Shown piece after piece: positions 8,537 through 21,981 of a stretch of DNA of 36,697 nucleotides. Position 1 is the first letter of the stretch. Each line of letters begins with the position of its first letter. The position numbers were made by a program, and so were the translations under genes. The stretch is from an uncultured Ruminococcus sp. (GTDB taxonomy: Bacteria; Bacillota; Clostridia; Lachnospirales; Lachnospiraceae), in contig CAJFGR010000042.1 of NCBI GenBank assembly GCA_904377845.1, forward strand, positions 1 to 36,697, given 5' to 3'. The notes beneath the pieces were generated by a model. It was not told where the DNA came from. It was given only the letters and a program-made list of their open reading frames with translations, and did no database searches.

Positions 8537-9589
8537 ATGAAGAATCTGAAGATTGGTGAAAAACTGACCCGTATCCCCCTGATCCAGGGCGGCATGGGCG
8601 TAGGTATAAGCCTTGGCAGACTGGCGGGATCGGTTGCAAAAGAAGGCGGCATTGGAATTATTTCCACTGCCCAGATCGGCTACAGGGACCCGGATTTTGA
8701 TGCGGATCCTGCCGGAGCCAATTTAAGAGCGATCGAGAGTGAGATGAAAAAGGCGCGCGCAATTTCGCCGGACGGGATCATAGGATACAATGTGATGACA
8801 GCACTGAAAGAACACGCTGCTCACATAAAGGCGGCTGTCAAAGCGGGCGCGGATATTATCATATCAGGTGCCGGACTGCCTACAGATCTTCCTGCGCTTA
8901 CCGAGGGAAGCAATACAAAGATCGCTCCGATCGTGTCCACCGACAAGTCGGCGAATGTGATCCTGAAATATTGGGACAGAAAATATAAGAGAACGGCAGA
9001 CCTTGTAGTGATCGAGGGCCCGCAGGCCGGAGGACATCTGGGGTTTAAGAAAGAGGAACTCTCGGAATACACACCGGAAACTTACGGCGAGGAAATACAG
9101 CGTATTATCCGGACTGTAAAAAAATACGGAGAGAAGTACGGCGCGGAGATCCCTGTTGTAGTTGCAGGCGGTATTTATGACAGCAGTGATGTGAAAAGAG
9201 TCATGGATCTGGGAGCCGACGGCGTGCAGGTGGCAACCCGTTTTGTCACGACGGAAGAGTGCGACGCAGATATCCGTTATAAAGAGGCGTATATCAATGC
9301 ATCTGAAAAGGATATCGCAATTGTAAAAAGTCCGGTGGGAATGCCTGGGCGTGCGATCATCAATCCGCTTATGAAACGGGTGGCGGACGGCGAGAAGATC
9401 CCTCACAGTCCATGTCACAGATGTCTGGCAAAATGCAGTCCTGCCGACATTCCGTATTGTATTACGGACGGACTGATCAATGCAGTGAAAGGAAATATTG
9501 AGGAGGGGCTGCTCTTCTGCGGAGCAAAGGCGTGGAAAGCGCAGAAGATCGATACTGTAAGAGAAGCGGTTCAGGAATTATTTGCCTGA
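8537..9589 (+). CDS. FabK/nitronate monooxygenase family flavoprotein
   Basis: A 350-residue FMN-binding barrel protein of the nitronate monooxygenase/FabK superfamily. It has PLIQGGMGVG (14-23), GPQAGGHLGF with a likely catalytic His167, VVAGGI and GVQVATRF. It is clearly a different subgroup from the fabK at the start of the operon. It is longer and ends in a cysteine cluster (Cys293, Cys296, Cys300, Cys308, spacing CxxCx3Cx7C), which could bind a metal or Fe-S centre. Its place between accDA and the MarR gene suggests a link to lipid metabolism, either a second enoyl reductase or an enzyme that detoxifies propionate-3-nitronate. The substrate cannot be told from sequence. Confidence 0.8.
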   Translation: MKNLKIGEKLTRIPLIQGGMGVGISLGRLAGSVAKEGGIGIISTAQIGYRDPDFDADPAGANLRAIESEMKKARAISPDGIIGYNVMTALKEHAAHIKAAVKAGADIIISGAGLPTDLPALTEGSNTKIAPIVSTDKSANVILKYWDRKYKRTADLVVIEGPQAGGHLGFKKEELSEYTPETYGEEIQRIIRTVKKYGEKYGAEIPVVVAGGIYDSSDVKRVMDLGADGVQVATRFVTTEECDADIRYKEAYINASEKDIAIVKSPVGMPGRAIINPLMKRVADGEKIPHSPCHRCLAKCSPADIPYCITDGLINAVKGNIEEGLLFCGAKAWKAQKIDTVREAVQELFA

Positions 9590-9606
9590 CGGAAAGGAGA
9601 AACCGG

Positions 9607-10059
9607 ATGGACCCACACGATACCATCAATGATATTCTGGTAAATCTGTTCAATGAGATATTGAAACTGGAAGAAGAGGCGATCATTACGGATGAGTTTA
9701 AGGACATCACAAATAATGATATGCACATCATAGAGGCAGTCGGGCTGTCCGGTGAAAATACCATGTCCGTAGTAGCGAAGAAGCTGGGGATTACGGCCGG
9801 ATCGCTTACGACGTCTGTAAACAATCTTGTCAATAAAAAATATGTGACAAGGAAGAGAAGTGAAGAGGACAGACGCGTTGTGTTCTTACAGCTGACCGCG
9901 AAAGGAAAACGGGCATACGAGCATCACCGTGAGTATCATCGCCAGATGACAGAAGCAGTAATCAATAAACTGGATGAGAATGAAGTGCCTGTCTTAATAA
10001 AGACACTTACCGGATTGTCAGAATTTTTCAGAGGTTATAATAACCAGATGAATAATTGA
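9607..10059 (+). CDS. fabT: MarR-family regulator, FabT-like
   Basis: Winged-helix MarR-family regulator of 150 residues. The wing-helix region runs from about MSVVAKKLGITAGSLTTSV (53-71) through the MarR hallmark RKRSEEDRRVVFLQLTAKG (82-100). In Streptococcus and related Firmicutes a protein of this family (FabT) represses fatty acid synthesis genes when acyl-ACP is abundant. Here it is the last gene of the operon, 17 bases after the flavoprotein, and would give feedback control. I chose ATG 9607 because AAGGAG lies 7 bases before it. A longer frame from 9532 would run into the preceding gene without a ribosome binding site. The fabT assignment rests on context. Confidence 0.8.
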   Translation: MDPHDTINDILVNLFNEILKLEEEAIITDEFKDITNNDMHIIEAVGLSGENTMSVVAKKLGITAGSLTTSVNNLVNKKYVTRKRSEEDRRVVFLQLTAKGKRAYEHHREYHRQMTEAVINKLDENEVPVLIKTLTGLSEFFRGYNNQMNN

Positions 10060-11599: not shown

Positions 11600-12328
11600 A
11601 TGTATGAAAAAGAAATCGAACAGCTTCAGAAAATCATAGATGACAGTGAAAGGATCGTTTTTTTCGGCGGGGCAGGAGTGTCAACGGAAAGCGGGATACC
11701 GGATTTCCGGAGCGCGGACGGAATCTACCACCAGAAATATAAATACTCGCCGGAGCAGGTGGTAAGCCACAGTTTCTTTATGAAATATCCGGAAGCCTTT
11801 TATGATTTCTACAAGGATAAGATGATGGCGCTGGATGCTAAACCGAACCCTGCACATTTAAAACTGGCAGAGCTTGAAAAAGCGGGAAAGCTTACCGCGG
11901 TAGTGACCCAGAATATCGACGGGCTTCATCAGGCGGCCGGAAGTAAGACGGTCTACGAGCTGCACGGAAGTATTCACAGGAATTACTGTATGAAGTGCGG
12001 GAAATTTTACGATGCGCGTTATGTGAAAGATTCAGAGGGAGTGCCGCGCTGCGAGTGCGGCGGGCTCATAAAGCCGGATGTGGTCCTGTATGAAGAAGGC
12101 CTTGATCAGAAGGTGATACAGGGAGCGGTCGAAGCGATCGCGTCTGCCGATACACTTATTATCGGAGGAACATCACTGGTGGTATATCCGGCAGCAGGTT
12201 TTATCGATTACTTCCGGGGAAAACATCTTGTCGTGATAAACAAGTCATCCACAGGAAGAGCCGTCCGTGCAGAACTCTCCATCTCCGCACCGATCGGAGA
12301 GATCATGGGGCAGATTGCGGTTCGGTAA
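11600..12328 (+). CDS. cobB: NAD-dependent protein deacylase, Sir2 family (CobB-like)
   Basis: Removes acyl groups from lysines using NAD. The 242-residue protein has the sirtuin motifs GGAGVSTESGIPDFRS (23-38), TQNIDGLH (103-110) and catalytic His122 in LHGS. The zinc site is Cys130, Cys133, Cys151 and Cys153 (CxxC...CxC). GGTSLVVYPAAG forms the NAD ribose pocket. An AAAGGGG site precedes the ATG at 11600. A shared terminator separates it from the convergent gene. CobB is used as the bacterial sirtuin name; class III-type residues for succinyl lysine were not assigned. Confidence 0.93.
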   Translation: MYEKEIEQLQKIIDDSERIVFFGGAGVSTESGIPDFRSADGIYHQKYKYSPEQVVSHSFFMKYPEAFYDFYKDKMMALDAKPNPAHLKLAELEKAGKLTAVVTQNIDGLHQAAGSKTVYELHGSIHRNYCMKCGKFYDARYVKDSEGVPRCECGGLIKPDVVLYEEGLDQKVIQGAVEAIASADTLIIGGTSLVVYPAAGFIDYFRGKHLVVINKSSTGRAVRAELSISAPIGEIMGQIAVR

Positions 12329-12339
12329 TCTGTGAAAAA

Positions 12340-12375
12340 CCCCGGAAAAGTTGCAGGACTTTACCGGGGCTCTTT
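12340..12375. terminator. Bidirectional terminator between sirtuin and CmpB-like genes
   Basis: CCCCGGAAAAG (12340-12350) pairs with CTTTACCGGGG (12359-12369) with one mismatch. T-runs follow on the + strand (CTCTTTTT) and on the - strand (TTTTTC). Confidence 0.9.
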
Positions 12376-12921
12376 TTAAAAGCAGTATGTATAAATAATA
12401 TCAGCGATAAACAGTATCAATAATATCAGGCTGACGGTATATAGTGTCCGGTCGGACATTTTGCCGGTCAGCTTTTTAAATAACGGCTGGAGCAGATAAA
12501 GGAAGACCATACCGCCGATGCCGAAACGGATGCTCGGATTCAGTGCGATCCTTCCTTCAAAATTAAAAGAAAACCGGGTATAATCCCAGAGCCATCCGCC
12601 CTGTGTGAACTCCATGATGTAGCTGGCTATAAGTTCCAGGACAGTCGTAATGACTACGATACCGATAAAAACGAGCACCGGCGTAATTAATACTTTTCCC
12701 AAATACAGACGTTTCTTCTGGAGTCCGCCAAGGAAAAGGAGCAGGATGAGCGCTCCGACTCCGTAGATGATACAGTACGGGCCAAAGAGGACGCCGCGGT
12801 TTGAGAATCCCCAGCGGTACACGACTACTTCCAGAAACACTTCGTAGATCCAGCCGAGGATCGAGTACATCATAAAATAGAGATAGTATTCTGCAAATTT
12901 TTTCTGTATATTTTGTTTCAT
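12376..12921 (-). CDS. CmpB-type (putative ABC transporter type IV) membrane protein
   Basis: A 181-residue integral membrane protein with about five hydrophobic helices. The N-terminal YSILGWIYEVFLE and the RGVLFGPYCIIYGVGA motif are typical of the family annotated as putative ABC transporter permease (CmpB, PF06541). No ATPase partner is adjacent, so a transport role is not established. A GAGGGGG site precedes the ATG on the minus strand. It lies 60 bases downstream of the methyltransferase gene and may be co-transcribed with it. Confidence 0.82.
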   Translation of the reverse strand: MKQNIQKKFAEYYLYFMMYSILGWIYEVFLEVVVYRWGFSNRGVLFGPYCIIYGVGALILLLFLGGLQKKRLYLGKVLITPVLVFIGIVVITTVLELIASYIMEFTQGGWLWDYTRFSFNFEGRIALNPSIRFGIGGMVFLYLLQPLFKKLTGKMSDRTLYTVSLILLILFIADIIYTYCF

Positions 12922-12981
12922 ATTTCCCCCTCGGTAAAATATTGGTTTTTAGCAATGATGTGCGGGCTGAACCGGAATGAT

Positions 12982-13839
12982 TCAGCGTTCCCACCGGCTG
13001 GAAGCGCCGCAGGGGAGCACCAGCCCTGATTCCGTTACCGGAAGCCCGATTTCCTGAGACTCCACATGACCATTCCATGGTTTTAATTCGGTGGCTATCA
13101 TGTAAGTGAGCACTGCCGGTGCAAGCCCGGTTGTGTATGAGTTTACCAGAAAGAACAGGGCGTCTTTTGACAGGATCTTTGTACACAGCTTAATGAGCGG
13201 ATGAATCATATCCTCGATCTTCCAGATTTCGCCTTTCGGGCCTCTCCCATAGGAAGGCGGATCCATGATGATGGCGTCGTAAGTATGTCCCCGCCGTATT
13301 TCGCGTTCTACGAATTTTACACAGTCGTCCACCAGCCAGCGGATCGGAGCGTCCTTCAGCCCGGAAGACACGGCGTTCTCTTTTGCCCATGTCACCATAC
13401 CCTTTGATGCATCCACATGAGTGACCTGCGCGCCTGCAGCTGCCGCGGCAAGGGTGGCGCCTCCGGTGTAGGCAAACAGATTCAGTACTTTGACCGGACG
13501 TCCGGCATTGCGGATCTTTTCAGAGAACCAGTCCCAGTTTGTCGCCTGCTCGGGGAAGAGGCCGGTATGTTTAAAACTGAACGGTTTCAGATTAAAAGTA
13601 AGCGAACCGTAATGAATCTGCCACTGTTTCGGCAGGCTGAAGAATTCCCATTCACCGCCTCCTTTTTTGCTGCGGTGATAATGTCCGTTCATGTGTTTCC
13701 ATCCTCTGGCGTTTCTGGGGGTGTCCCAGATGACCTGAGGATCCGGCCGTACAAGGATGTAGTCTCCCCAGCGTTCCAGCTTCTCTCCTTTTGAACAGTC
13801 AATGACTTCATAATCTTTCCAGTTATCAGCTATCCACAT
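12982..13839 (-). CDS. Class I SAM-dependent methyltransferase, RlmI/RlmK-like
   Basis: A 285-residue protein with the SAM-binding motif VLNLFAYTGGATLAAA, an acidic ribose-binding motif THVDASKGMV, and the catalytic-type motif MDPPSYGRG. This combination is that of the 23S rRNA cytosine/guanine methyltransferases RlmI and RlmK (Methyltrans_SAM family). The N-terminal PUA domain of RlmI is missing, replaced by about 115 residues rich in Trp and Lys. RNA methylation is therefore likely, but the target base is unknown. An AAAGGA site precedes the start, and the leader contains a CCCGCA/TGCGGG hairpin (13864-13881). Confidence 0.85.
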   Translation of the reverse strand: MWIADNWKDYEVIDCSKGEKLERWGDYILVRPDPQVIWDTPRNARGWKHMNGHYHRSKKGGGEWEFFSLPKQWQIHYGSLTFNLKPFSFKHTGLFPEQATNWDWFSEKIRNAGRPVKVLNLFAYTGGATLAAAAAGAQVTHVDASKGMVTWAKENAVSSGLKDAPIRWLVDDCVKFVEREIRRGHTYDAIIMDPPSYGRGPKGEIWKIEDMIHPLIKLCTKILSKDALFFLVNSYTTGLAPAVLTYMIATELKPWNGHVESQEIGLPVTESGLVLPCGASSRWER

Positions 13840-13945
13840 AAAATGATTCCTTTCTGAATATTTCCCGCATATGAGTGCGGGAGATAATTCTGTGTATTAT
13901 ATTGCGGTATGTTTTGTTAAAGTAATTGATAAGTAATTCCCAGTG

Positions 13946-13975
13946 ATTATAGCACAGATGATATAGAAAGAACAA
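13946..13975 (-). promoter_or_regulatory. Promoter for the methyltransferase gene
   Basis: On the minus strand, TTGTTC (complement of 13970-13975), an 18-base spacer and TATAAT (complement of 13946-13951), preceded by TGC in the extended -10 position. Confidence 0.6.
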
Positions 13976-13995
13976 TGGACGGCGAATATAAAATA

Positions 13996-14034
13996 CCTCA
14001 GGCAGTTTTTTGTATTTTAATGTTCTGCCTGAGG
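13996..14034 (-). terminator. Hairpin after the CotH-like gene, candidate terminator
   Basis: CCTCAGGCAG (13996-14005) pairs with CTGCCTGAGG (14025-14034). On the minus strand the stem is followed by TATTTTATATT, a weak U-rich tail, so it probably ends the lipoprotein-CotH operon. Confidence 0.6.
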
Positions 14035-14065
14035 GTATCGTGTCATTGTAATGGCATCTGCGGCT

Positions 14066-15469
14066 TCATTGGAAGAGATCTGCAATCTCTCCCATATCCG
14101 GAAGCCAGATGTCTGATGCGTCTATTCTGGTTTTTGTGTCTGCCTCCTGACCTGCAATAGTTGAAGGTATCGTTCCGTCCAACTGACTTCTCACACTCTG
14201 GGATCTGAGCAGGCAAAACTTGATAAACGTTTCCGTGCCGGTCAGATAATCTTCATAGGAGCAGAACGCAGTGGGATCTTTTTCTACATAGGGCGCGATC
14301 ATTCTGGCTGTCTCGGCAGATTTTTTCTCAAAATATCCGCTCTCGAAGTATTCATCTATGAAATAATCAAAATATTCGTGATATCGTGAAAAATATTCCT
14401 CTGTTTTCATCAGGTTATGATAGAGAGGCCGGTTCATCATGACTTCTCCGGCCGCGGGGGTGTCTATCGGATAATTTACATAGAGTCCGGCATCATTTAC
14501 GGGTTCGGGCATACCAAGAGAGTATGTGGCAAATGCCAGATTATAATCCCAGGGCAGAATGCTGATGACACCGTCTTCTTCATAAAGAAAATAATTATGT
14601 CCGGTTTTGCCCAGATAGCTGTCCAGATTTACGACAAATACCTGAACCGTAAAATATCTGAGCACTTCGTCTACGTTAACAGCAGATTCGATTTCTGTCC
14701 CTTGTCCTTCTGACAGGACCTTTAATGTTCGGATCAGACGCTGCCGGTCGGATTCCGTGCAGTCAAATTTTGCATGACGGAAAATATTATCGTAATCTTC
14801 GGGATTATCTGTTGTGTATTTCAGTGCCACATCGTTATTAGCATCTTCAAGCGAACGGTAGTCAGGTTTATACAGCATACCGTAATCTGCGCCGAAATTC
14901 CTGCGGGCAAATGCCTCCTCAGGCTCTTCCACAGCCAGAAATAATCCCCAGTCTTCTCCGTTTACTGTAACCCGGACATAGCTGCACAGGGGTGACGGGA
15001 CGTCCATAAAACTCATCATGTCATAGGCTATATAATTTTTCAGATAAGAATTATCCTGAAAGGAAGAATCCAGAGACATTTTATCCAGTCCGTAATATGT
15101 ATTTCCTTCCTGAAAATGATCAAATTCTATTTTGAGGCTGTACCTGTCGAGACCGTATTCTTCCACAAGTCTGCGCGAATTGTTTCCTTTGGCTCTCAGA
15201 CCTATGGAAGCGAAAAGTTCGCCGTCGATCTCTACATCGCATTCGGTATATTTTTCTTTTGGAGCTTCTTCAAGGAATTTATTCCAGTCGTCGATCTGAA
15301 TATCAATGTGGTGGACATAACTGTCATCGAAAATTCTCACAGAATATTCAGGGACTGAAGAAACCGGCGTAATCCCAAGTTTATCAGCTGACAGGAATAA
15401 CGCGGCTATAATACATGCGGCAGCGGCGAGGCTAATGCAGATTCTGTCAGTATATCTGTGCTTCAACAT
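14066..15469 (-). CDS. CotH-family secreted protein kinase-like protein
   Basis: A 467-residue protein with one N-terminal membrane segment (about residues 8-27), followed by a large extracellular domain. It has CotH-family marks: RAKGNNSRR, NGEDWGLFLAVEEPEE, NLDSYLGKTGHNYFLYEE and LPWDYNLAF. In Bacillus spores CotH is an atypical kinase that phosphorylates serine-rich coat proteins. Asp283 (in NLD) and Asp308 (in WDYN) look like the catalytic and metal-binding aspartates. ATG 15469 has GGGGTG upstream; GTG 15478, overlapping the previous stop, is an alternative. It is last in the operon with an RsgI-like lipoprotein, VTC and DUF4956 genes. Kinase activity here is inferred. Confidence 0.85.
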   Translation of the reverse strand: MLKHRYTDRICISLAAAACIIAALFLSADKLGITPVSSVPEYSVRIFDDSYVHHIDIQIDDWNKFLEEAPKEKYTECDVEIDGELFASIGLRAKGNNSRRLVEEYGLDRYSLKIEFDHFQEGNTYYGLDKMSLDSSFQDNSYLKNYIAYDMMSFMDVPSPLCSYVRVTVNGEDWGLFLAVEEPEEAFARRNFGADYGMLYKPDYRSLEDANNDVALKYTTDNPEDYDNIFRHAKFDCTESDRQRLIRTLKVLSEGQGTEIESAVNVDEVLRYFTVQVFVVNLDSYLGKTGHNYFLYEEDGVISILPWDYNLAFATYSLGMPEPVNDAGLYVNYPIDTPAAGEVMMNRPLYHNLMKTEEYFSRYHEYFDYFIDEYFESGYFEKKSAETARMIAPYVEKDPTAFCSYEDYLTGTETFIKFCLLRSQSVRSQLDGTIPSTIAGQEADTKTRIDASDIWLPDMGEIADLFQ

Positions 15470-15474
15470 ACCGG

Positions 15475-16146
15475 TCACCCCATATAGTCTCCGTTATATG
15501 AGACTAAGACTACGTTGCTGATCCCTTCGATCTGGGACAGTGCATTGATAAATGCGGACTCGCCTTCTTTAAAACGAATTTCATAGTTCAGCTCAATACA
15601 TCCGGGAGAAACCGATTTGCTCTTTAGGGAAATTGCATTTACCTGCCCTTTAATATATTCTTCAGCTTCTTTTTCTTTTTCAGCCGTCTCGCAGTGAACT
15701 ACCAGAATATAGGGGCGTTCTATATTTTTCCTGCCGGAGAATATCAGGAGGACAAGCCCGATAAATACACTTCCGAAGACCGCCAGCGGTATGAAACCGG
15801 CAGCAAGTACGATGCCTGCCGCAATGCTCCAGAAAAGAAATGCGATGTCCATAGGTTCTTTGATTGCTGTTCTGAAACGGACGATGGAAAGCGCACCGAC
15901 CATACCAAGCGAAAGTACTACATTGCTTGTGACGGCAAGTATCAGAAATGTAGTTATCAAGGTCAGTGCGACTAGAGTGGCCCCGAAAGATGCAGAGTAC
16001 ATCAGTCCGCAGTAACTCTTTTTATAAATAAAGAAAATGAAGAGCCCCATTGCAAAAGACAGAATGAGAGCGACCGCCATATCCAGAACAGAGATCGCAT
16101 TTACATTTTCTAAAAATCCTGATTTAAATATATCCTGAAATGTCAT
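15475..16146 (-). CDS. DUF4956 membrane protein
   Basis: A 223-residue protein with about four hydrophobic helices in the first 140 residues, including the conserved GMVGALSIVRFRTAIKEP segment that defines DUF4956, and a cytosolic C-terminal domain of about 80 residues with an ACT-like alternation. DUF4956 genes are often found next to VTC-domain polyphosphate-polymerase-like genes, as here, and are thought to form a membrane partner. The biochemical role is unknown. ATG 16146 is chosen because AAGGTGG lies 5 bases upstream; a GTG at 16155 falls inside that site. It lies 72 bases after the VTC gene, in a gap holding the hairpin TGAAGCC/GGCTTCA (16176-16201). Confidence 0.85.
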   Translation of the reverse strand: MTFQDIFKSGFLENVNAISVLDMAVALILSFAMGLFIFFIYKKSYCGLMYSASFGATLVALTLITTFLILAVTSNVVLSLGMVGALSIVRFRTAIKEPMDIAFLFWSIAAGIVLAAGFIPLAVFGSVFIGLVLLIFSGRKNIERPYILVVHCETAEKEKEAEEYIKGQVNAISLKSKSVSPGCIELNYEIRFKEGESAFINALSQIEGISNVVLVSYNGDYMG

Positions 16147-16218
16147 AGTGTCCACCTTTTCTTCATGTAATCCTGTGAAGCCTCCTGCCTTTAGGGCTTC
16201 ATAAAATCTATTCTGCTG

Positions 16219-16914
16219 TCAGCCAAAACGTCTGCAGACAGCATATTTTGAAAACGCACCGGTTTTTCTGTCAGGTACCTGTACTGCCATCCTGACAATA
16301 TCCGGCAGAAACGCGTCATATTTTACTTCAAGAACCGTATTTCCGGGTTCGGGTTCAAGAAAATTGGAAAGCGTCTTAAGAAAAACTGCCGGGGAAGTAC
16401 AAGTACGGATTTTTCTGTCAAGTGTAACGCGTACATTGCCCGGTGCAAATATAAATGCTTCTCTTTCGTAGCTGACAATTGTCCGGGGCATCAGAAGTTC
16501 GCCTCTTATTTTACTGTAAAGTTCAATCATAAGCGGATCTTTGCTTTCGAGGAGAAAGGCGATATCACCTTTTAACAGCTTCTCTGCCTGATCGAAGGAA
16601 AGGCGGACGCTGCGTTTGGCGCAAAGCTCGCCTTTTTTAATCTTCTTCTCAAGTTTAAGAAAACCAGGAGTTTCGCCGTAATACCGAAGCCGGAATTTTT
16701 CACGTTTATCTATTCCGGAGATCTTCTGGAGAAGGGCTTTGTCCTCCGGGGTATCAAAATAAAGGCTGTTTACCTGGTACCCTCCGTCCGGTCCGGCATG
16801 GCTGTCCCTTGGGAACAGCCTGCCGAGTCTGTCTGATATGATCCGGTCTTCCCCGGGGGTAATCAGATGCTTAAGTTCGTGACGGAAAGAAACGGGAGTT
16901 TTATTAATCATCAT
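16219..16914 (-). CDS. VTC-domain polyphosphate polymerase-like protein
   Basis: A 231-residue protein of the VTC family (triphosphate tunnel fold). Basic and acidic tunnel residues are visible: RHELKHLI at the start, KREKFRLRYY, GFLKLEKKIKKG, then KRSVRLSF, RVTLDRKIR and VLEVKYD near the end. In yeast this domain makes polyphosphate from ATP; bacterial relatives are poorly studied. Start 16914 (or 16911, two adjacent ATGs) overlaps the stop of the upstream lipoprotein gene, with GGAG 9 bases before, which suggests coupled translation. A longer frame from 17016 would only read the lipoprotein repeat in another frame and is rejected. Confidence 0.88.
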   Translation of the reverse strand: MMINKTPVSFRHELKHLITPGEDRIISDRLGRLFPRDSHAGPDGGYQVNSLYFDTPEDKALLQKISGIDKREKFRLRYYGETPGFLKLEKKIKKGELCAKRSVRLSFDQAEKLLKGDIAFLLESKDPLMIELYSKIRGELLMPRTIVSYEREAFIFAPGNVRVTLDRKIRTCTSPAVFLKTLSNFLEPEPGNTVLEVKYDAFLPDIVRMAVQVPDRKTGAFSKYAVCRRFG

Positions 16915-17908
16915 AGCCGGAATCTCCGTTGTCGTAACCGGAATCCCCGCTGTCGTCATAACCGGAATCGTTGTTTCCGTAATTGGAATTGCCGCTGTCA
17001 TAGCCGGAATCTCCATTGCCGGCCGATCCGGAGTTAGATGGCTGGGACGGTGCAGGGGCTGATGGTTGGGACGGGGGTGGCGTTACCGGCTTTGTTGTAG
17101 TGGTCGTCTGTCCTGAACTGTAACCGGAATTTCCGTCGTCATAGTTGGTTGCGCCGTCACTGTTTGCACCGTAATCTGTGTTGCCATAGTTTGTATTGCC
17201 ATAATTTGTGTTTCCGTAATTGGAGTCCCCGCTGTTCCCTGCATTGTTACTGCTGTTTGTATTATTTGAAGTACCGGATGTAGACGCCGGTTTGTCATCG
17301 TAATCTGTTACCCCGTCTCCTGTTGTGCCATAGTCAGTATCATCGTAGTCGGTTACCCCGTCGTTATCCGGGCCGTAGTCTGTATCGCCGTAATTGGTCC
17401 AGCCGTAAGTGCTCTCGCCGTTTACGGCGACCGGAGTGTTGATCTTCTCTGCACTTGTATATTTCTGGATTTCTGCCACAATACTATTTAAAAAATTTTC
17501 CGCGGGAAGAACAGAACCCTTTTCTATTTCGAGAGTGATCTGATGAGCTTCGCCATCTGTTTCTTCTACAAAATATCCGGCTTCATTGATCAGGGCGACC
17601 AGTTCACCGATAACAACGCGGCATTCTTTCCCTTCAAATCCGGTATAATCGGCTATTACTTTTTTACCGTCGTCATTGCGGCTTTCTATCTTTGTAACAG
17701 CTCCGTTTTCATCATAGAATACCGCAATTTCGGGATTGACTTTGAGGGAAATAACGCCTCCCTGCTCTTCTGTCTGAGTCTCGACTGCAGTGCCGGTCTG
17801 TGCTGCAGACGGCCCGGTCTGCTGCCTGCTTCCGCATCCGATGAGCCCTCCGAAGAGAGAAAGTGTTAATACAGTTGCAAGTGATACTATTAATGTTTTC
17901 TTTTTCAT
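16904..17908 (-). CDS. Lipoprotein with RsgI-type domain and Tyr/Asp/Gly/Asn repeat tail
   Basis: A 334-residue exported lipoprotein. It has a Lys-rich signal peptide and a lipobox LIGC with Cys25 as the lipidated residue. Residues 52-150 match the extracellular domain of RsgI anti-sigma factors, including the Asn58-Pro59 pair in LKVNPEIAV, where RsgI proteins are known to self-cleave. The cytosolic anti-sigma segment is absent. Residues 163-334 are low-complexity repeats such as NYGNTNYGNTDYG and DSGYDNGDSGYDD, with a Pro/Ser hinge. It is divergent from sigI-rsgI and has the same promoter type. It may act as an extracellular sensor, wall-matrix component or substrate of the CotH-like kinase; none of these is proven. 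Confidence 0.85.
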   Translation of the reverse strand: MKKKTLIVSLATVLTLSLFGGLIGCGSRQQTGPSAAQTGTAVETQTEEQGGVISLKVNPEIAVFYDENGAVTKIESRNDDGKKVIADYTGFEGKECRVVIGELVALINEAGYFVEETDGEAHQITLEIEKGSVLPAENFLNSIVAEIQKYTSAEKINTPVAVNGESTYGWTNYGDTDYGPDNDGVTDYDDTDYGTTGDGVTDYDDKPASTSGTSNNTNSSNNAGNSGDSNYGNTNYGNTNYGNTDYGANSDGATNYDDGNSGYSSGQTTTTTKPVTPPPSQPSAPAPSQPSNSGSAGNGDSGYDSGNSNYGNNDSGYDDSGDSGYDNGDSGYDD

Positions 17909-17954
17909 AATTCATTTACTCCTTTTCTTCTGAATTTTGTTTTTGGTTTTGATG

Positions 17955-17987
17955 TAGTATACGAAAGCAAAATCGTAAAAACGGGGT
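17955..17987 (-). promoter_or_regulatory. SigI-type promoter for the lipoprotein-VTC-DUF4956-CotH operon
   Basis: On the minus strand, ACCCCG (complement of 17982-17987), 18 bases, then CGTATACTA (complement of 17955-17963). The same two blocks with the same spacing occur on the + strand before sigI. Known SigI promoters have a C-rich -35 (ACCCCC-like) and a CGAA-like -10. No sigma-A consensus was noticed here. Confidence 0.7.
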
Positions 17988-18102
17988 GGGGAAGCCTTTT
18001 TTTGAAAAATATTTAAAATGTTTTGGTATTGCAAATCAAGTTTTCTGTTATATATATATGTATTTACATATATTTTACGAAAATTTTACGTGAATTTTAT
18101 AC

Positions 18103-18111
18103 TGATATAAT
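18103..18111 (+). promoter_or_regulatory. Possible sigma-A promoter upstream of sigI
   Basis: TGA-TATAAT (18103-18111) is an extended -10 with a weak TTTTAC-like -35 about 16 bases before. It could supply basal sigI transcription. The surrounding gap is very AT-rich. Confidence 0.5.
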
Positions 18112-18139
18112 ACACTTAACGCGCGAATTTTAAATTCAG

Positions 18140-18172
18140 ACCCCGAAAATAATTACTCAGCTTCGTATACTA
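18140..18172 (+). promoter_or_regulatory. SigI-type promoter for sigI-rsgI
   Basis: ACCCCG (18140-18145), 18 bases, CGTATACTA (18164-18172). It is identical in both blocks and in spacing to the minus-strand promoter at 17955-17987, consistent with SigI autoregulation. Confidence 0.7.
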
Positions 18173-18192
18173 TTATATAGGAGGAAAAATCG

Positions 18193-18930
18193 ATGAACGC
18201 TGGGCATGAGCTTGTGGAGCAGGTATATGCGGCCAAAACAGATACTGAAGCGGCTGACAGTCTTATACGTCAGTATATGGGATTCATACGGGCTGAAACG
18301 GCGAAATATATCCACCGTGCTCCTGTTGAAGGGCAGGACGAAGAACTTAGTATAGTACTGCTGGCTTTTTATGAAGCTATCCTTGGTTACGAGAAAAACC
18401 GCGGGGCGTTTCTTTCCTATGCTTCCAGGGGAATACGCAGCCGTATCATCGATTATTACCGTAAAGAAAAGAAACATACAAAAGTGACTTCACTTCATGA
18501 ACCTGTTCAGGACGAAGACAATGAAACCTGGAAGATTAATCAGTTAGAGAATCCGGAAAATGAAATTGAAAAGAGTCATCATATAAGTGCAACAAGAGAT
18601 GAGATTCAGGAATATGAGAAAACTCTTCAGGAATTCGGGATTTCATTTTCAGATGTGTCTGATAATTGCCCCCGGCAGAAGCGTACGCTTCAGGCGTGCA
18701 GACGGGTGCTTTCTGCAGCGAGAGAGAATCCCGAACTGCTGGATGAACTGCTTCGCACCAAGAAACTTCCGATGGCAGCGCTCTCAGAAAAATCAAAAAC
18801 CGATAAGAAGACAATGGAGCGGCACAGAAAGTATCTGGTAGCTATTTTGCTGGCGTTTACAAACGGGTATGAGATTATACGGGGACATTTGTACCATCTC
18901 ACCGGAAAGCGGGAAAACTCTGATACATAG
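18193..18930 (+). CDS. sigI: RNA polymerase sigma factor SigI
   Basis: A 245-residue alternative sigma factor. The N-terminal sigma-2 region contains the polymerase- and -10-binding segment with AFLSYASRGIRSRIIDYYRKE. The C-terminal region is not a classic sigma-4 but the SigI-specific C-terminal domain, with DNCPRQKRTLQACRRV and TDKKTMERHRKYLVAILLAFTNGYEIIRGHL, which ends SigI proteins. SigI controls heat-shock or cell-wall genes in Bacillus and cellulosome genes in Clostridium thermocellum. A GGAGG site precedes the ATG. rsgI begins 17 bases after its stop. Both a sigma-A-like and a SigI-like promoter lie upstream. Confidence 0.93.
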   Translation: MNAGHELVEQVYAAKTDTEAADSLIRQYMGFIRAETAKYIHRAPVEGQDEELSIVLLAFYEAILGYEKNRGAFLSYASRGIRSRIIDYYRKEKKHTKVTSLHEPVQDEDNETWKINQLENPENEIEKSHHISATRDEIQEYEKTLQEFGISFSDVSDNCPRQKRTLQACRRVLSAARENPELLDELLRTKKLPMAALSEKSKTDKKTMERHRKYLVAILLAFTNGYEIIRGHLYHLTGKRENSDT

Positions 18931-18947
18931 TAGAAACGGAGTCGAAC

Positions 18948-19853
18948 ATGGAAAAAGAGACAAAGTATCTGGTACTGGAAGTTCATAATGCATATGCGGT
19001 GGTCCTTAATAACAGCGGACAATTTATAAAGGCGGCGAACTGCGGATATAAGGTAGGAGATGTCGTTGGAAGTATCATTCCCATGATCTATCCTCAGGAT
19101 AAGAAGAAACGCAAAAATAATATTATCCGGCTGGCTGCAGGCCTGGCTGCCTGCATATGCCTGTGCGTGTTCGGAGGGTATGAATATCAATATATGTATA
19201 CGGAATATGGAAGTGTCCATATGCAGATTAACCCGGACGTAGAGATTACTCTGAGCCGATCGGGACGTGTCCTGGATATCGAGGGAGAAAATGCAGACGG
19301 AAAAGAATTGGTGGAAGATTATGAATATAAAGGAAAAGATAAAGAAACTGTTGTAGACGAGCTCGCGGATCTTGCTATAGAACAGCAGTATCTTACCGAT
19401 ACCGGACGGATTTCCATTGAGGTTGATGCACGAAGTGATGAATGGGCGAAGAAGATGGAAACAGAAATATCGGAAGAGCTTAACAGCTATCTGCAGGAGC
19501 AGGGTCTGACAATAGAAATAGCTATCGGTCGTGCAGAAGACGGGAACGGTACAGAAGACAAAGAGATTCTGGAAGAATCACAGTCTGTAACCATCCCGAT
19601 TCCCGGGACAACAGATGAGACAGATGACTCTGCAGCAGAAAGTGATGATGACAGCGATGACGGAGTAACAGACTATTCTGTACCGTCCGGATCCTCTTCT
19701 GCTTCGTCCACTACGCCATCCTCGTCCTCTTCCGTACCGGTACAGAGCGATTCGGGCTATGATAGCGGCGGAAACAGCTCATATGACAGCAACGGAAACA
19801 GTTCTTATAGTGACAGTTCCTACAGCAGTTCGGATGACGACGATGATGACTGA
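18948..19853 (+). CDS. rsgI: Anti-sigma-I factor RsgI
   Basis: A 301-residue transmembrane anti-sigma factor that should hold SigI at the membrane. Residues 1-50 form the cytosolic RsgI N-terminal domain (YLVLEVHNAYAVVLNNSGQF...GDVVGSIIP). A basic stretch KKKRK precedes one membrane helix (about 59-78). Residues 88 to about 185 are the extracellular RsgI domain with Asn95-Pro96 in QINPDVEI, the site of autoproteolysis in studied homologues. The C-terminal about 80 residues are a Ser/Asp/Tyr-rich tail ending in a run of aspartates, instead of a carbohydrate-binding module as in C. thermocellum. The tail resembles that of the divergent lipoprotein. Confidence 0.92.
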   Translation: MEKETKYLVLEVHNAYAVVLNNSGQFIKAANCGYKVGDVVGSIIPMIYPQDKKKRKNNIIRLAAGLAACICLCVFGGYEYQYMYTEYGSVHMQINPDVEITLSRSGRVLDIEGENADGKELVEDYEYKGKDKETVVDELADLAIEQQYLTDTGRISIEVDARSDEWAKKMETEISEELNSYLQEQGLTIEIAIGRAEDGNGTEDKEILEESQSVTIPIPGTTDETDDSAAESDDDSDDGVTDYSVPSGSSSASSTTPSSSSSVPVQSDSGYDSGGNSSYDSNGNSSYSDSSYSSSDDDDDD

Positions 19854-20058
19854 GTTGTATGGTAATGAGGCGGGGACGGATTCTGATGTTTATGTTGAAA
19901 GGAAAATAGACGGGTTCCAGATCAGGAAAGGTGTTCTGGAGCTCGTTTTTATTGCTCATGTTTTCTGCAGTTGTTTTCTGTCTGTTGCGGCTTCACTGTT
20001 GAGCATAGTCGTGCAATCACTAATCCCCTTAACTATGTACAAACGGAAAAGAAAATAA
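19846..20058 (+). CDS. Possible small single-span membrane protein
   Basis: A 70-residue frame whose ATG overlaps the rsgI stop by 8 bases. It has an acidic, soluble N-terminus (MTELYGNEAGTDSDVYVE), one hydrophobic stretch from about residue 31 to 60, and a basic KRKRK end, a plausible tail for a membrane protein. No clear ribosome binding site is seen, so it would depend on coupling with rsgI. No family was recognised. It could be a chance frame. The rest of the gap (20059-20151) shows no other coding signal. Confidence 0.3.
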   Translation: MTELYGNEAGTDSDVYVERKIDGFQIRKGVLELVFIAHVFCSCFLSVAASLLSIVVQSLIPLTMYKRKRK

Positions 20059-20151
20059 AATGAGTGACGGAAAACAAAAGAAAAGCCACAGAATGTATGT
20101 TGGATTGTGTGGAAAAACAATGTTTCACAGTAAAATCGCCGTTGATTCGCG

Positions 20152-20180
20152 TTGACTTAATATATACTATGAAGTATAAT
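20152..20180 (+). promoter_or_regulatory. Sigma-A promoter of the microcompartment operon
   Basis: TTGACT (20152-20157), a 17-base spacer and TATAAT (20175-20180) form a near-consensus promoter. The inverted repeat TATACT-ATGA-AGTATA (20163-20178) overlaps the spacer and -10, and GGATTGTGT occurs at 20102-20110 and 20194-20202. Both are candidate operator sequences. Confidence 0.8.
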
Positions 20181-20227
20181 TAATTTAATTGCAGGATTGT
20201 GTAAATCCAGATTGGAGTGAGGTTGAA

Positions 20228-20590
20228 ATGGTTCAGGAACATAAGCCGGAACGTATCGTACAGGAACTTGTTCCCGGCAAGGAAATTACCATCGCCCACC
20301 TGATTGCAAGTCCCGATATTACGCTTTACGAGAAGCTTGGGCTTGACCCGAGGGTAGAGTACAGCAAGTCCGCTATCGGTGTGTTGACGATCAGTCCGGC
20401 GGAGACTGCGATCATTGCCGGAGATATCGCTATTAAAGCGGCGGGCATTGAGCTTGGATTTGTGGACAGGTTCAGCGGTACGTTGATCGTAACCGGTACG
20501 ATCTCGGAGACAGAGGCGGCGATCCGGGCGGTCCTCGAATATGTGAAGGACAAGATGGGCTTTTCTGTATGTGAGATAACAAGGACGTAA
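20228..20590 (+). CDS. pduU: Microcompartment shell protein, PduU/EutS type
   Basis: A 120-residue circularly permuted BMC-domain shell protein that should form hexamers in the facet of the compartment. It follows the PduU/EutS pattern: RIVQELVPGKEITIAHLIASP, AIGVLTISPAETAIIAGDIA, GFVDRFSGTLIVTG, and the C-terminal ITRT. I chose ATG 20228 because GGAGTGAGG lies before it; a TTG-initiated longer frame from 20189 starts too close to the promoter. It is the first gene of the operon and lies 4 bases before the PduV/EutP gene. Confidence 0.92.
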   Translation: MVQEHKPERIVQELVPGKEITIAHLIASPDITLYEKLGLDPRVEYSKSAIGVLTISPAETAIIAGDIAIKAAGIELGFVDRFSGTLIVTGTISETEAAIRAVLEYVKDKMGFSVCEITRT

Positions 20591-20594
20591 TATA

Positions 20595-21059
20595 ATGAAG
20601 AAAATAGTACTGGTAGGCAGGAGCGAATGCGGAAAGACCACACTGACGCAGGCTCTGAAAGGTGAAACAATACACTATCACAAGACCCAGTACGTGAACA
20701 ATTTTGATGTGATTATCGACACTCCCGGGGAATACGCGCAGACAAAGCATCTTGGATATGCGTTGGCGCTGTATACATATGAGGCAGATGTAGTGGGAAT
20801 GCTTTTATCGGCAACCGAACCCTACTCGCTGTATCCGCCCTGTTGTACGGCTACCTGCAATCGGGAAGTGATCGGGATCGTCACAAAGATCCACGACGAA
20901 CGCGCGGATGTTGCGAGGGCGGAAAGGTGGCTCAGGCTTGCGGGATGCAAAAAGATCTTCTATGTGGATTCCAAGTGTTATGAGGGGATTCCCGAGATAC
21001 TGGAGTACCTGAAAGAAGACGGAGATGTACTCCCGTGGGAAAAAGATGAAAACCAATAA
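20595..21059 (+). CDS. pduV: Small GTPase-like protein, PduV/EutP family
   Basis: A 154-residue Ras-like P-loop protein with GRSECGKT (8-15) as Walker A and DTPGEY as the switch II/G3 motif. In place of the usual NKxD it shows VTKIHDERAD. PduV/EutP proteins accompany microcompartments and are linked to their positioning in the cell, with GTPase or kinase activity debated. It immediately follows the PduU gene, as is common in pdu and eut operons, and a second promoter separates it from the aldolase gene. Confidence 0.9.
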   Translation: MKKIVLVGRSECGKTTLTQALKGETIHYHKTQYVNNFDVIIDTPGEYAQTKHLGYALALYTYEADVVGMLLSATEPYSLYPPCCTATCNREVIGIVTKIHDERADVARAERWLRLAGCKKIFYVDSKCYEGIPEILEYLKEDGDVLPWEKDENQ

Positions 21060-21078
21060 AAACCAACATTGAAATAGG

Positions 21079-21141
21079 TTGACTACTGTGGGATTGTGTG
21101 GTAATATTCAAAAAGAAACAACACAAAACAAAATGTTTTGT
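21079..21141 (+). promoter_or_regulatory. Internal promoter and candidate operator before the aldolase gene
   Basis: TTGACT (21079-21084), 17 bases, TAATAT (21102-21107). The spacer contains GGATTGTGT (21091-21099), also present twice near the first operon promoter. Just after the expected start of transcription, ACAAAAC (21123-21129) and GTTTTGT (21135-21141) form an inverted repeat with a 5-base centre, suitable for a repressor. Confidence 0.7.
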
Positions 21142-21162
21142 AGAATCCAAGGAGGAGAAGAG

Positions 21163-21981
21163 ATGCAAAACGAATACGAAATCAAAAAAGAAATGTGTGA
21201 AATCGGTAAACGAGTTTACAATCGTGGAATGGTTGCTGCAAATGACGGTAACTTTTCTGTAAAACTCAATGACCATGAGTTTTTATGTACACCGACAGGT
21301 GTCAGCAAAGGGTTCATGACACCGGAGTACATCTGCAAGGTTGATGAGAATGGTAATGTTCTTCAGGCAAACAAAGGATTCAGACCTTCATCAGAGATCA
21401 AGATGCATATGCGTGTTTATCAGAAAAGACCGGATGTAAAATCAGTTGTACATGCTCATCCGCTGTACGCTACAACATTTGCGATCGCAGGTATTCCGCT
21501 GACACAGCCGATCATGCCTGAGGCAGTTATCGCACTTGGATGTGTACCGATCGCTCCGTACGGAACACCGTCTACAATGGAGATTCCGGATGCAGTTGAG
21601 CCTTATCTTCAGCATTTTGATGCAGTTCTCCTTGAGAACCACGGCGCACTGACATATTCTGACAGCCTTCTTGCAGCATATATGAAGATGGAATCTGTAG
21701 AGTTCTATGCACAGCTGTTATGGCAGACAATGCAGATCGGCGGACCTCAGGAGTTCAGCAAAGAGCAGGTTGAGAGACTGTACGAGATCAGAAGACAGAT
21801 GGGACTTCCGGGAAAGCATCCGGCTAACCTCTGCCCGAATGCACAGGCAGGCAAACCGAGCTGCCATACATGCAGCGGTTCCTGCGGCAGCAAGACAGTT
21901 GCTTCCTCAACAGTTGGAAACACAGATGCTGATCTGGTTGCTTCTATCACAAAGAAAGTTATGGAACAGCTTGGTATGTAG
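21163..21981 (+). CDS. Class II aldolase, L-fuculose-phosphate type, with C-terminal encapsulation peptide
   Basis: A zinc aldolase of 272 residues that probably cleaves fuculose-1-phosphate (or rhamnulose-1-phosphate) to dihydroxyacetone phosphate and lactaldehyde. It has GNFSVK, Glu78 in PSSEIKMH as the likely catalytic acid, and zinc ligands His97, His99 (HAHP) and His160 (ENHG). After the aldolase domain, at about residue 222, comes a Cys-rich stretch (Cys224, Cys234, Cys237, Cys241), a Ser/Thr linker and an amphipathic helix DADLVASITKKVMEQLGM. That helix resembles encapsulation peptides, so the enzyme is probably packed inside the shell. ATG 21163 has GGAGGAG just upstream; an upstream extension to 21079 would run through the promoter. 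Confidence 0.88.
   Translation: MQNEYEIKKEMCEIGKRVYNRGMVAANDGNFSVKLNDHEFLCTPTGVSKGFMTPEYICKVDENGNVLQANKGFRPSSEIKMHMRVYQKRPDVKSVVHAHPLYATTFAIAGIPLTQPIMPEAVIALGCVPIAPYGTPSTMEIPDAVEPYLQHFDAVLLENHGALTYSDSLLAAYMKMESVEFYAQLLWQTMQIGGPQEFSKEQVERLYEIRRQMGLPGKHPANLCPNAQAGKPSCHTCSGSCGSKTVASSTVGNTDADLVASITKKVMEQLGM

Follow-up and report, generated by a model that had tools for sequence, protein, structure and literature searches.

The SigI literature that we found concerns envelope stress in Bacillus and the control of the cellulosome. In the parts of these papers available, Bacillales SigI promoters are given the consensus ACCCCC--AA-N15-CGAA, and those of Clostridium thermocellum SigI3 the consensus CCCYYAAA-N13-14-CGWA (PMC4711584, PMC6056542). 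Single A-to-T changes in the tract abolish activity for SigI3 (PMC6056542), and SigI6 binds the minor groove through K170, H171, and R172 (PMC10575876). Activation in C. thermocellum involves autocleavage of the anti-sigma factor RsgI, RseP, and ClpXP (PMC12203970), while WalR sites lie upstream of sigI in B. subtilis, where a sigma-A promoter exists besides the SigI promoter (PMC7478892). Among the matches listed from the open-licence literature, no paper dealt with the promoters or the regulon of SigI in Lachnospiraceae or Oscillospiraceae of the gut, and none dealt with an RsgI-like lipoprotein.

The window, by which we mean the whole stretch of 36.7 kb analyzed here, contains a sigI-rsgI pair and, running away from it, a lipoprotein operon. 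The features are as follows.

14066..15478, minus strand: CotH-family kinase-like protein with an N-terminal hydrophobic stretch
15475..16155, minus strand: DUF4956 membrane protein
16219..16914, minus strand: VTC-domain protein whose start, probably at 16914 or 16911, overlaps with the stop codon of the lipoprotein gene
16904..17908, minus strand: RsgI-like lipoprotein with lipobox, RsgI_M domain, Asn58-Pro59 at 17737-17732, and repetitive acidic tail
17955..17987, minus strand: predicted SigI-type promoter of the lipoprotein operon; -35 ACCCCG at 17987-17982, T-tract at 17981-17978, -10 CGTATACTA at 17963-17955
18063..18101, plus strand: four TTWACA-like units with an 11-bp period, a response-regulator-type box between the twin sites and directed at sigI
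18106-18111, plus strand: -10-like TATAAT, four bases past the last box unit
18140..18172, plus strand: predicted SigI-type promoter of sigI-rsgI; -35 ACCCCG at 18140-18145, A-tract at 18146-18149, -10 CGTATACTA at 18164-18172
18193..18930, plus strand: sigI, sigma-I-type sigma factor of 245 aa whose best matches are SigI models
18948..19853, plus strand: rsgI, anti-sigma factor with RsgI_M ectodomain and acidic tail, Asn-Pro at 19230-19235

The best SigI models score below their curated cut-offs (TIGR02895, 169 bits against 185; NF006178, 175 against 306), and the TIGR02895 cut-off is reached in 0 of 299 genomes of the family. The rsgI product matches RsgI_M with 84 bits (cut-off, 25.3) and RsgI_N with 22.9, just under the cut-off of 25. 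Downstream of rsgI, positions 20189-21981 on the plus strand encode a BMC-domain shell protein, a PduV/EutP-like protein, and a class II aldolase-like protein, probably the beginning of a microcompartment cluster.

The twin sites both read ACCCCG-N18-CGTATACTA, and the coordinates, letters, and 18-base spacers given for them in the initial annotation are exact on both strands. Its statement that the blocks are constrained and the spacers differ also holds, with 15/15 identical positions in the blocks against 5/18 in the spacers. Beyond what that annotation lists, AAAA stands directly after ACCCCG at the sigI side and TTTT at the lipoprotein side, and in both -10 regions CT lies two bases past CGTAT. 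The sigI ATG at 18193 is 20 bases past the plus-strand CGTATACTA; the lipoprotein ATG at 17908 is 46 bases past the minus-strand copy. A search of the window with up to 3 mismatches returned the twins only, each with 0 mismatches, but the loose count is not significant alone because two matches were reached in 9 of 100 shuffles (mean, 0.38 matches at the same threshold). It is conservation that decides the matter and confirms that the twin sites are real: both are present in all 15 genomes of the same genus that carry SigI. On the sequence comparisons set out below, we read them as two promoters for the adjacent SigI, with a probability of about 0.87.

The wider comparison used the best 80 of 470 SigI relatives from named genomes, which come mostly from Lachnospiraceae and Oscillospiraceae with few from other families; the sampled loci are related, and the counts are not independent. 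Upstream of sigI, the loose motif was found in 79/80 loci and the strict motif in 72/80, compared with the loose motif in 46 of 1,440 random control windows from the same loci. None of 19 windows taken ahead of other sigma factor genes had it; a few of these windows may be out of place because of contig ends. The sole locus without a loose site, L170, keeps the layout by eye, with ACCTTG. An RsgI match follows sigI in 78 of the 80 loci, and 77 of these 78 proteins keep the Asn-Pro, the remaining one (L141) being cut at a contig end. Many record titles of the SigI loci (L103-L182) indicate chicken-gut isolates or assemblies, within this sample, where bias is possible.

The lipoprotein gene was found in 69/80 loci, and in each of these 69 a strict motif precedes it. 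In 10 of the 11 remaining loci the gene is unobservable because the sequence ends no more than 2.2 kb past the sigI start; the other, L171, has SigI and no lipoprotein found in 10.7 kb. Strict sites elsewhere in the 1.22 Mb of loci number 19, several of them at contig ends that cut off the lipoprotein, compared with 22 matches of the backwards-read pattern. The counts before sigI and before the lipoprotein gene support the view that the twins are SigI-type promoters. More than one strict site precedes the lipoprotein gene in 22 of the 69 loci. Examples are L120, L125, L129, L130, and L132, among others, where two sites of SigI type stand in tandem about 70 to 170 bases apart.

Within the genus, SigI is present in 15 of 58 genomes, and the lipoprotein occurs in the same 15 and is absent, together with SigI, from the other 43 (Fisher's p 3e-14, ignoring relatedness), a count that leaves aside two weak matches, one in G361 (E 6.8e-4) and an additional one in G371. 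A close VTC protein (62 to 100% identity) is found in the same 15 genomes. Seven SigI-less genomes carry distant VTC proteins (32 to 37% identity), and in all seven there was no strict site within 1.5 kb of the VTC gene nor in stretches of 4 to 12 kb; the loose pattern, with ACCC instead of ACCCC, had two matches around these genes.

The lipoprotein, VTC, DUF4956, and CotH genes follow in this order on one strand in 43/80 loci, many others being cut by contig ends. Nine roomy loci (L117, L120, L121, L122, L124, L146, L149, L170, and L177, more than 5.5 kb each) have the lipoprotein with no VTC, DUF4956, or CotH gene detected, and so the constant partner of SigI is the lipoprotein and not the VTC-DUF4956-CotH trio. 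The initial annotation had joined all four genes to the SigI regulon. The comparison supports this. The lipoprotein, which has the motif in 69/69 loci and shares its distribution with SigI in the genus, is the constant part, and the trio can be absent. In L149, the place of VTC after the RsgI-like lipoprotein is taken by a second lipoprotein-like gene (8995-9726). Inspection by eye of 13 loci, one of them cut at a contig end, revealed no genes that recur after cotH.

What, then, is this lipoprotein? Its sequence has a Pfam RsgI_M match (E 1.4e-13), as have all 53 lipoproteins scanned out of the 69 found, and its profile aligns with the RsgI profile with a probability of 98.9%. By profile it also matches PDB 8T9N, the structure of B. 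subtilis RsgI (E 1.8e-8). The AlphaFold2 model has a mean pLDDT of 79, with residues 51-165 mostly above 90 and a dip at 111-120. In a Foldseek search with this model, the only PDB matches with an E of 0.001 or less were the two chains of 8T9N (1.3e-6 and 7e-6), and the next four (E 0.004 to 0.05) were 8HEP, 8HER, 8HDJ, and 8HEQ, all C. thermocellum RsgI domains. Chain 8HEP_B, presumably a cleavage product of the RsgI domain, begins at the proline aligned with lipoprotein P59 and RsgI P96, which fits the described autocleavage of the RsgI periplasmic domain (PMC12203970, partial text). The Asn-Pro at the first strand is kept in 69/69 lipoproteins, and 65/69 have a signal sequence with a lipobox pattern; many tails are acidic and repetitive, that in the window being rich in serine and aspartate. 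The lipoprotein has no RsgI_N match, and it has neither the sigma-binding domain nor the transmembrane helix of an RsgI. By sequence and predicted structure it is an RsgI paralogue, with a lipid-anchored domain of the autocleavage type (RsgI_M); its recognition as such, and as the constant partner of SigI, is new here.

The function of the paralogue can be read in two ways. It may work at the surface with the CotH kinase and VTC, as their partner or substrate, the RsgI-like domain being merely a structural module. The lipoprotein stop codon overlaps the VTC start, the trio follows it in order in more than half of the loci, its tail is rich in serine and aspartate, and CotH of Bacillus subtilis is described to phosphorylate serine-rich repeats of CotB (PMC7821199, partial text). 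Set against this, the nine roomy loci have no trio but still carry the lipoprotein with its SigI-type promoter, and the Asn-Pro is kept in 69/69 lipoproteins. We give this explanation somewhat less than even odds. We favor, with moderate confidence, a role in feedback on the sensor, because the lipoprotein is tied to SigI, keeps the putative cleavage site, and also occurs without CotH.

The sequence of the sites bears on which sigma factor reads them. Both twins have a C-rich -35, a tract, and a CG-starting -10 (CGWA) at SigI spacing (CCCCG, AAAA or TTTT, 18 bases, CGTA). This is the form that the initial annotation had given for SigI promoters, with a C-rich -35 and a CG-starting -10, and it agrees with the published SigI consensus sequences (PMC4711584, PMC6056542, PMC10575876), as far as the available parts of these papers go. 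The motif stands before sigI, as expected for autoregulation. A consensus was built from the 43 sigI and 60 lipoprotein sites with the commonest spacing that were left once near-copies had been taken out; the conservation of CCCC and CGTA in it proves nothing because the search pattern fixed both. Outside the pattern, the conserved columns are the A before CCCC, the G after it, the tract, the T after CGTA (more weakly at lipoprotein sites), and the CT two bases on; spacer columns carry 0.3 to 0.4 bits. As a candidate SigI consensus the motif holds for this group and fails as a general one. When 30 SigI loci from across the family were compared, that of the window among them, the 200 bases upstream had the loose motif in 17/30 and the strict motif in 12/30, and the other, more distant SigI types there lacked it. 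Judged by these upstream regions, it is a motif of one group of SigI factors and not of all.

The published A-tract (AAA) is found at the sigI side, whereas the lipoprotein side has a T-tract. One could argue that SigI reads the sigI-side site alone and that the T-tract site belongs to another sigma factor with a C-rich -35 and a CG -10, as about 98% of the 91 strict lipoprotein sites have TTT, against the A-tract rule in the accessible text of PMC6056542. The 72 strict sigI sites, however, are about 74% AAA and about 26% TTT, which means that sites autoregulated by SigI include both tract forms, and the lipoprotein and SigI are present or absent together in all 58 genomes. We regard this explanation as improbable and keep the reading of both twins as SigI promoters. 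The conflict of the T-tract with the published rule makes these sites a test of how SigI reads the minor groove. R210, H211, and R212 are invariant across 17 aligned SigI proteins and resemble K170, H171, and R172 of SigI6, a likeness by description and not by alignment to SigI6.

In the window the blocks are mutually inverted, and they might be an operator whose inverted pair is bound by a regulator. The relatives separate the two readings. The lipoprotein gene lies in tandem after rsgI in 52 loci and is divergent in 17, and the promoter precedes it in both orders, which sets the promoter reading apart from any that needs the inverted layout. The 17 divergent loci form a single clade in the SigI tree (support, 100/99), so that a single rearrangement explains the divergent order; the root of the tree was placed for drawing only and does not show which gene order is older. 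In the 52 tandem loci each gene is preceded by these blocks in tandem arrangement, often with two before the lipoprotein, and the distance from block to sigI start is mostly 49 to 68 bases, as for a promoter. On the tandem loci we reject the operator, to which we leave very little probability. Least probable is that the twins are sigma-A promoters. The TATACT contained in CGTATACTA at both window sites is one base off the sigma-A -10, but a sigma-70 scan reported no site at either twin, the sigma-A -35 position is occupied by CCGAAA or CCGTTT, and most relatives have CGTATT or CGTATC with ACCCC-18-CG kept. On the scan and the loss of TATACT in relatives we reject this reading, and both support the non-sigma-A architecture first proposed for the twins.

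The region between the twin promoters contains a further element, new here and likewise absent from the initial annotation, the 11-bp repeat box directed at sigI. In the window, positions 18063-18101 are the only site that scores at least 20 on either strand. The best four-unit score is 19 to 21 of 24 in all 18 divergent regions (the window and the 17 loci), and a period of 11 outscores 9, 10, 12, and 13 in every one of them. Exactly nine bases past the last unit, 16 of these regions have TATAAT, TATACT, or TATATT, the exceptions being L104 and the window. A three-unit box lies upstream of sigI in 13/17 divergent and 37/63 tandem loci (0.13 and 0.41 expected from the frequency in the loci); in the same upstream regions the opposite strand had no such box, and no other period gave one. 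In many tandem loci, L134, L136, L139, and L144 among them, a GGTCGC that looks conserved by eye comes within some 10 bases of the end of the box, instead of the TATA box. The units resemble TTWACA, and we take them to look more like PhoP (Pho regulon) boxes, which are TTWACA-type repeats with an 11-bp period, and unlike the WalR box. Identity with a PhoP box was not confirmed: no PhoP-type box scoring at least 19 was found in 12 loci around PstS-like matches, which are themselves below the family cut-off.

Does the regulon extend beyond the locus? In the own genome (2.76 Mb), ACCCCG-N17-19-CGTATA occurs three times, as the twins and once within a small ORF on the opposite strand. The genome search proposed in the initial annotation thus recovered the twins and revealed no clear further members there. 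Own-genome near-matches (L066-L071) were rejected as promoters, lying inside or over ORFs according to the ORF lists. Scans of 7 whole genomes with one mismatch gave 68 matches compared with 94 in the control, and a second pattern in 38 genomes gave 127 compared with 83, of which 30 of the 127 were at SigI loci. There is no clear excess of sites beyond the locus in these scans, and at the stringency used the near-matches lend no support to a wider regulon in the own genome. Of 18 off-locus matches picked for inspection, 17 are inside ORFs. The exception, L296 (G043:C21, 16536-16563, minus strand), is a lone SigI-type site in another genus, 57 bases before a gene for a secreted protein, and on its sequence is a candidate extra member. 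The protein has a weak PepSY match, below the cut-off, and a long DDDRWDD-type tail like several of the lipoproteins here.

A recurrent match, ACCCCGAAGATTTTATTCCTTTTACGT[A/G]TA with a variant, in five places in four genomes, was rejected as a promoter. In four of the five (L061, L063, L064, and L065) it stands on the strand opposite an FMN riboswitch; the fifth, L062, has no Rfam match at gathering score and no close gene in its direction. In this genus the 5' edge of the FMN riboswitch carries an opposite-strand ACCCCG-N18-CGT-like match, a trap for SigI motif scans. An Rfam scan of window positions 12000-21000 gave no match.

We propose the following model for the locus. The N-terminal domain of SigI would read CGTAT(N)CT as the -10, and the C-terminal domain ACCCCG with the A/T-tract as the -35, and SigI RNA polymerase would start transcripts a few bases past the CGTATNCT blocks on both sides. 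The sigI-side promoter would autoregulate sigI-rsgI, and the second would drive the lipoprotein-VTC-DUF4956-CotH operon. By analogy with C. thermocellum and Bacillus, from which we carry over the activation route, RsgI would hold SigI in unstimulated cells; a surface signal would pull apart the self-cleaved RsgI ectodomain, and proteolysis would free SigI, so that both promoters fire. We hypothesize that the lipoprotein, which repeats the RsgI ectodomain on a lipid anchor, acts back on RsgI as a decoy or co-receptor, and that the 11-bp repeat box and the sigma-A-type -10 supply basal transcription of sigI. Taken as a whole, the locus might be a compact SigI module whose constant output is a self-cleaving, lipid-anchored sensor copy that feeds back on RsgI as a decoy or relay. 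In it, the class of a promoter would depend on tract polarity (A mostly for autoregulation and T for output), and the response-regulator box would gate entry. We put this fuller scheme forward tentatively and think it rather more likely to be wrong in some part than right in all.

Compared with known systems, the sites share with the Bacillales SigI promoters, such as that of B. subtilis sigI-rsgI, an ACCCC-type -35, a CG-starting -10, and an autoregulated sigI-rsgI (PMC4711584, partial text). They differ in having CGTAT for CGAA, an AAAA or TTTT tract, and a distance from the C block to CG that is one base shorter. The motif was not found here at mreBH, lytE, or bcrC, which belong to the Bacillus regulon. 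The box and TATAAT are comparable to the action of the response regulator WalR and a sigma-A promoter at B. subtilis sigI (PMC7478892, partial text). As in C. thermocellum SigI3 promoters, the C-rich block comes first and CGWA last, and the sigI side, with the A-tract between them, fits CCC-NN-AAA-N14-CGTA (available parts of PMC4711584 and PMC6056542). The lipoprotein side has the T-tract, and the targets here are not cellulosome genes. The gene content has a counterpart in NELoc-2 of Clostridium perfringens, a locus that combines VTC genes and CotH with a sigma-I gene and a putative anti-sigma protein (PMC2879425 Table 4; PMC11677781, PMC5964661); NELoc-2 is known from a gene list without promoters in the parts of these sources available, and the likeness is one of description and not of sequence. 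The accessory group of Gram-positive pel clusters has the same unit of VTC (polyphosphate polymerase), DUF4956, and CotH, and the available text describes no SigI, RsgI, or RsgI-like lipoprotein in it (PMC7112168). The twins provide a usable consensus and a small regulon, namely, sigI-rsgI, one lipoprotein, and often VTC-DUF4956-CotH.

The lipoprotein itself is closest to the periplasmic (SEAL) domains of RsgI (8T9N, 8HEP, 8HER, 8HDJ, and 8HEQ) in sequence profile, predicted fold, and Asn-Pro. It differs from the RsgI SEAL proteins in being lipid anchored, without transmembrane helix or sigma-binding domain, and with a self-cleavage that is putative here. The RsgI-like lipoprotein is a defined candidate for feedback in a self-cleaving signaling pathway and, if this is true, a duplicate of the sensor without its sigma-binding part would be a new kind of SigI feedback element.
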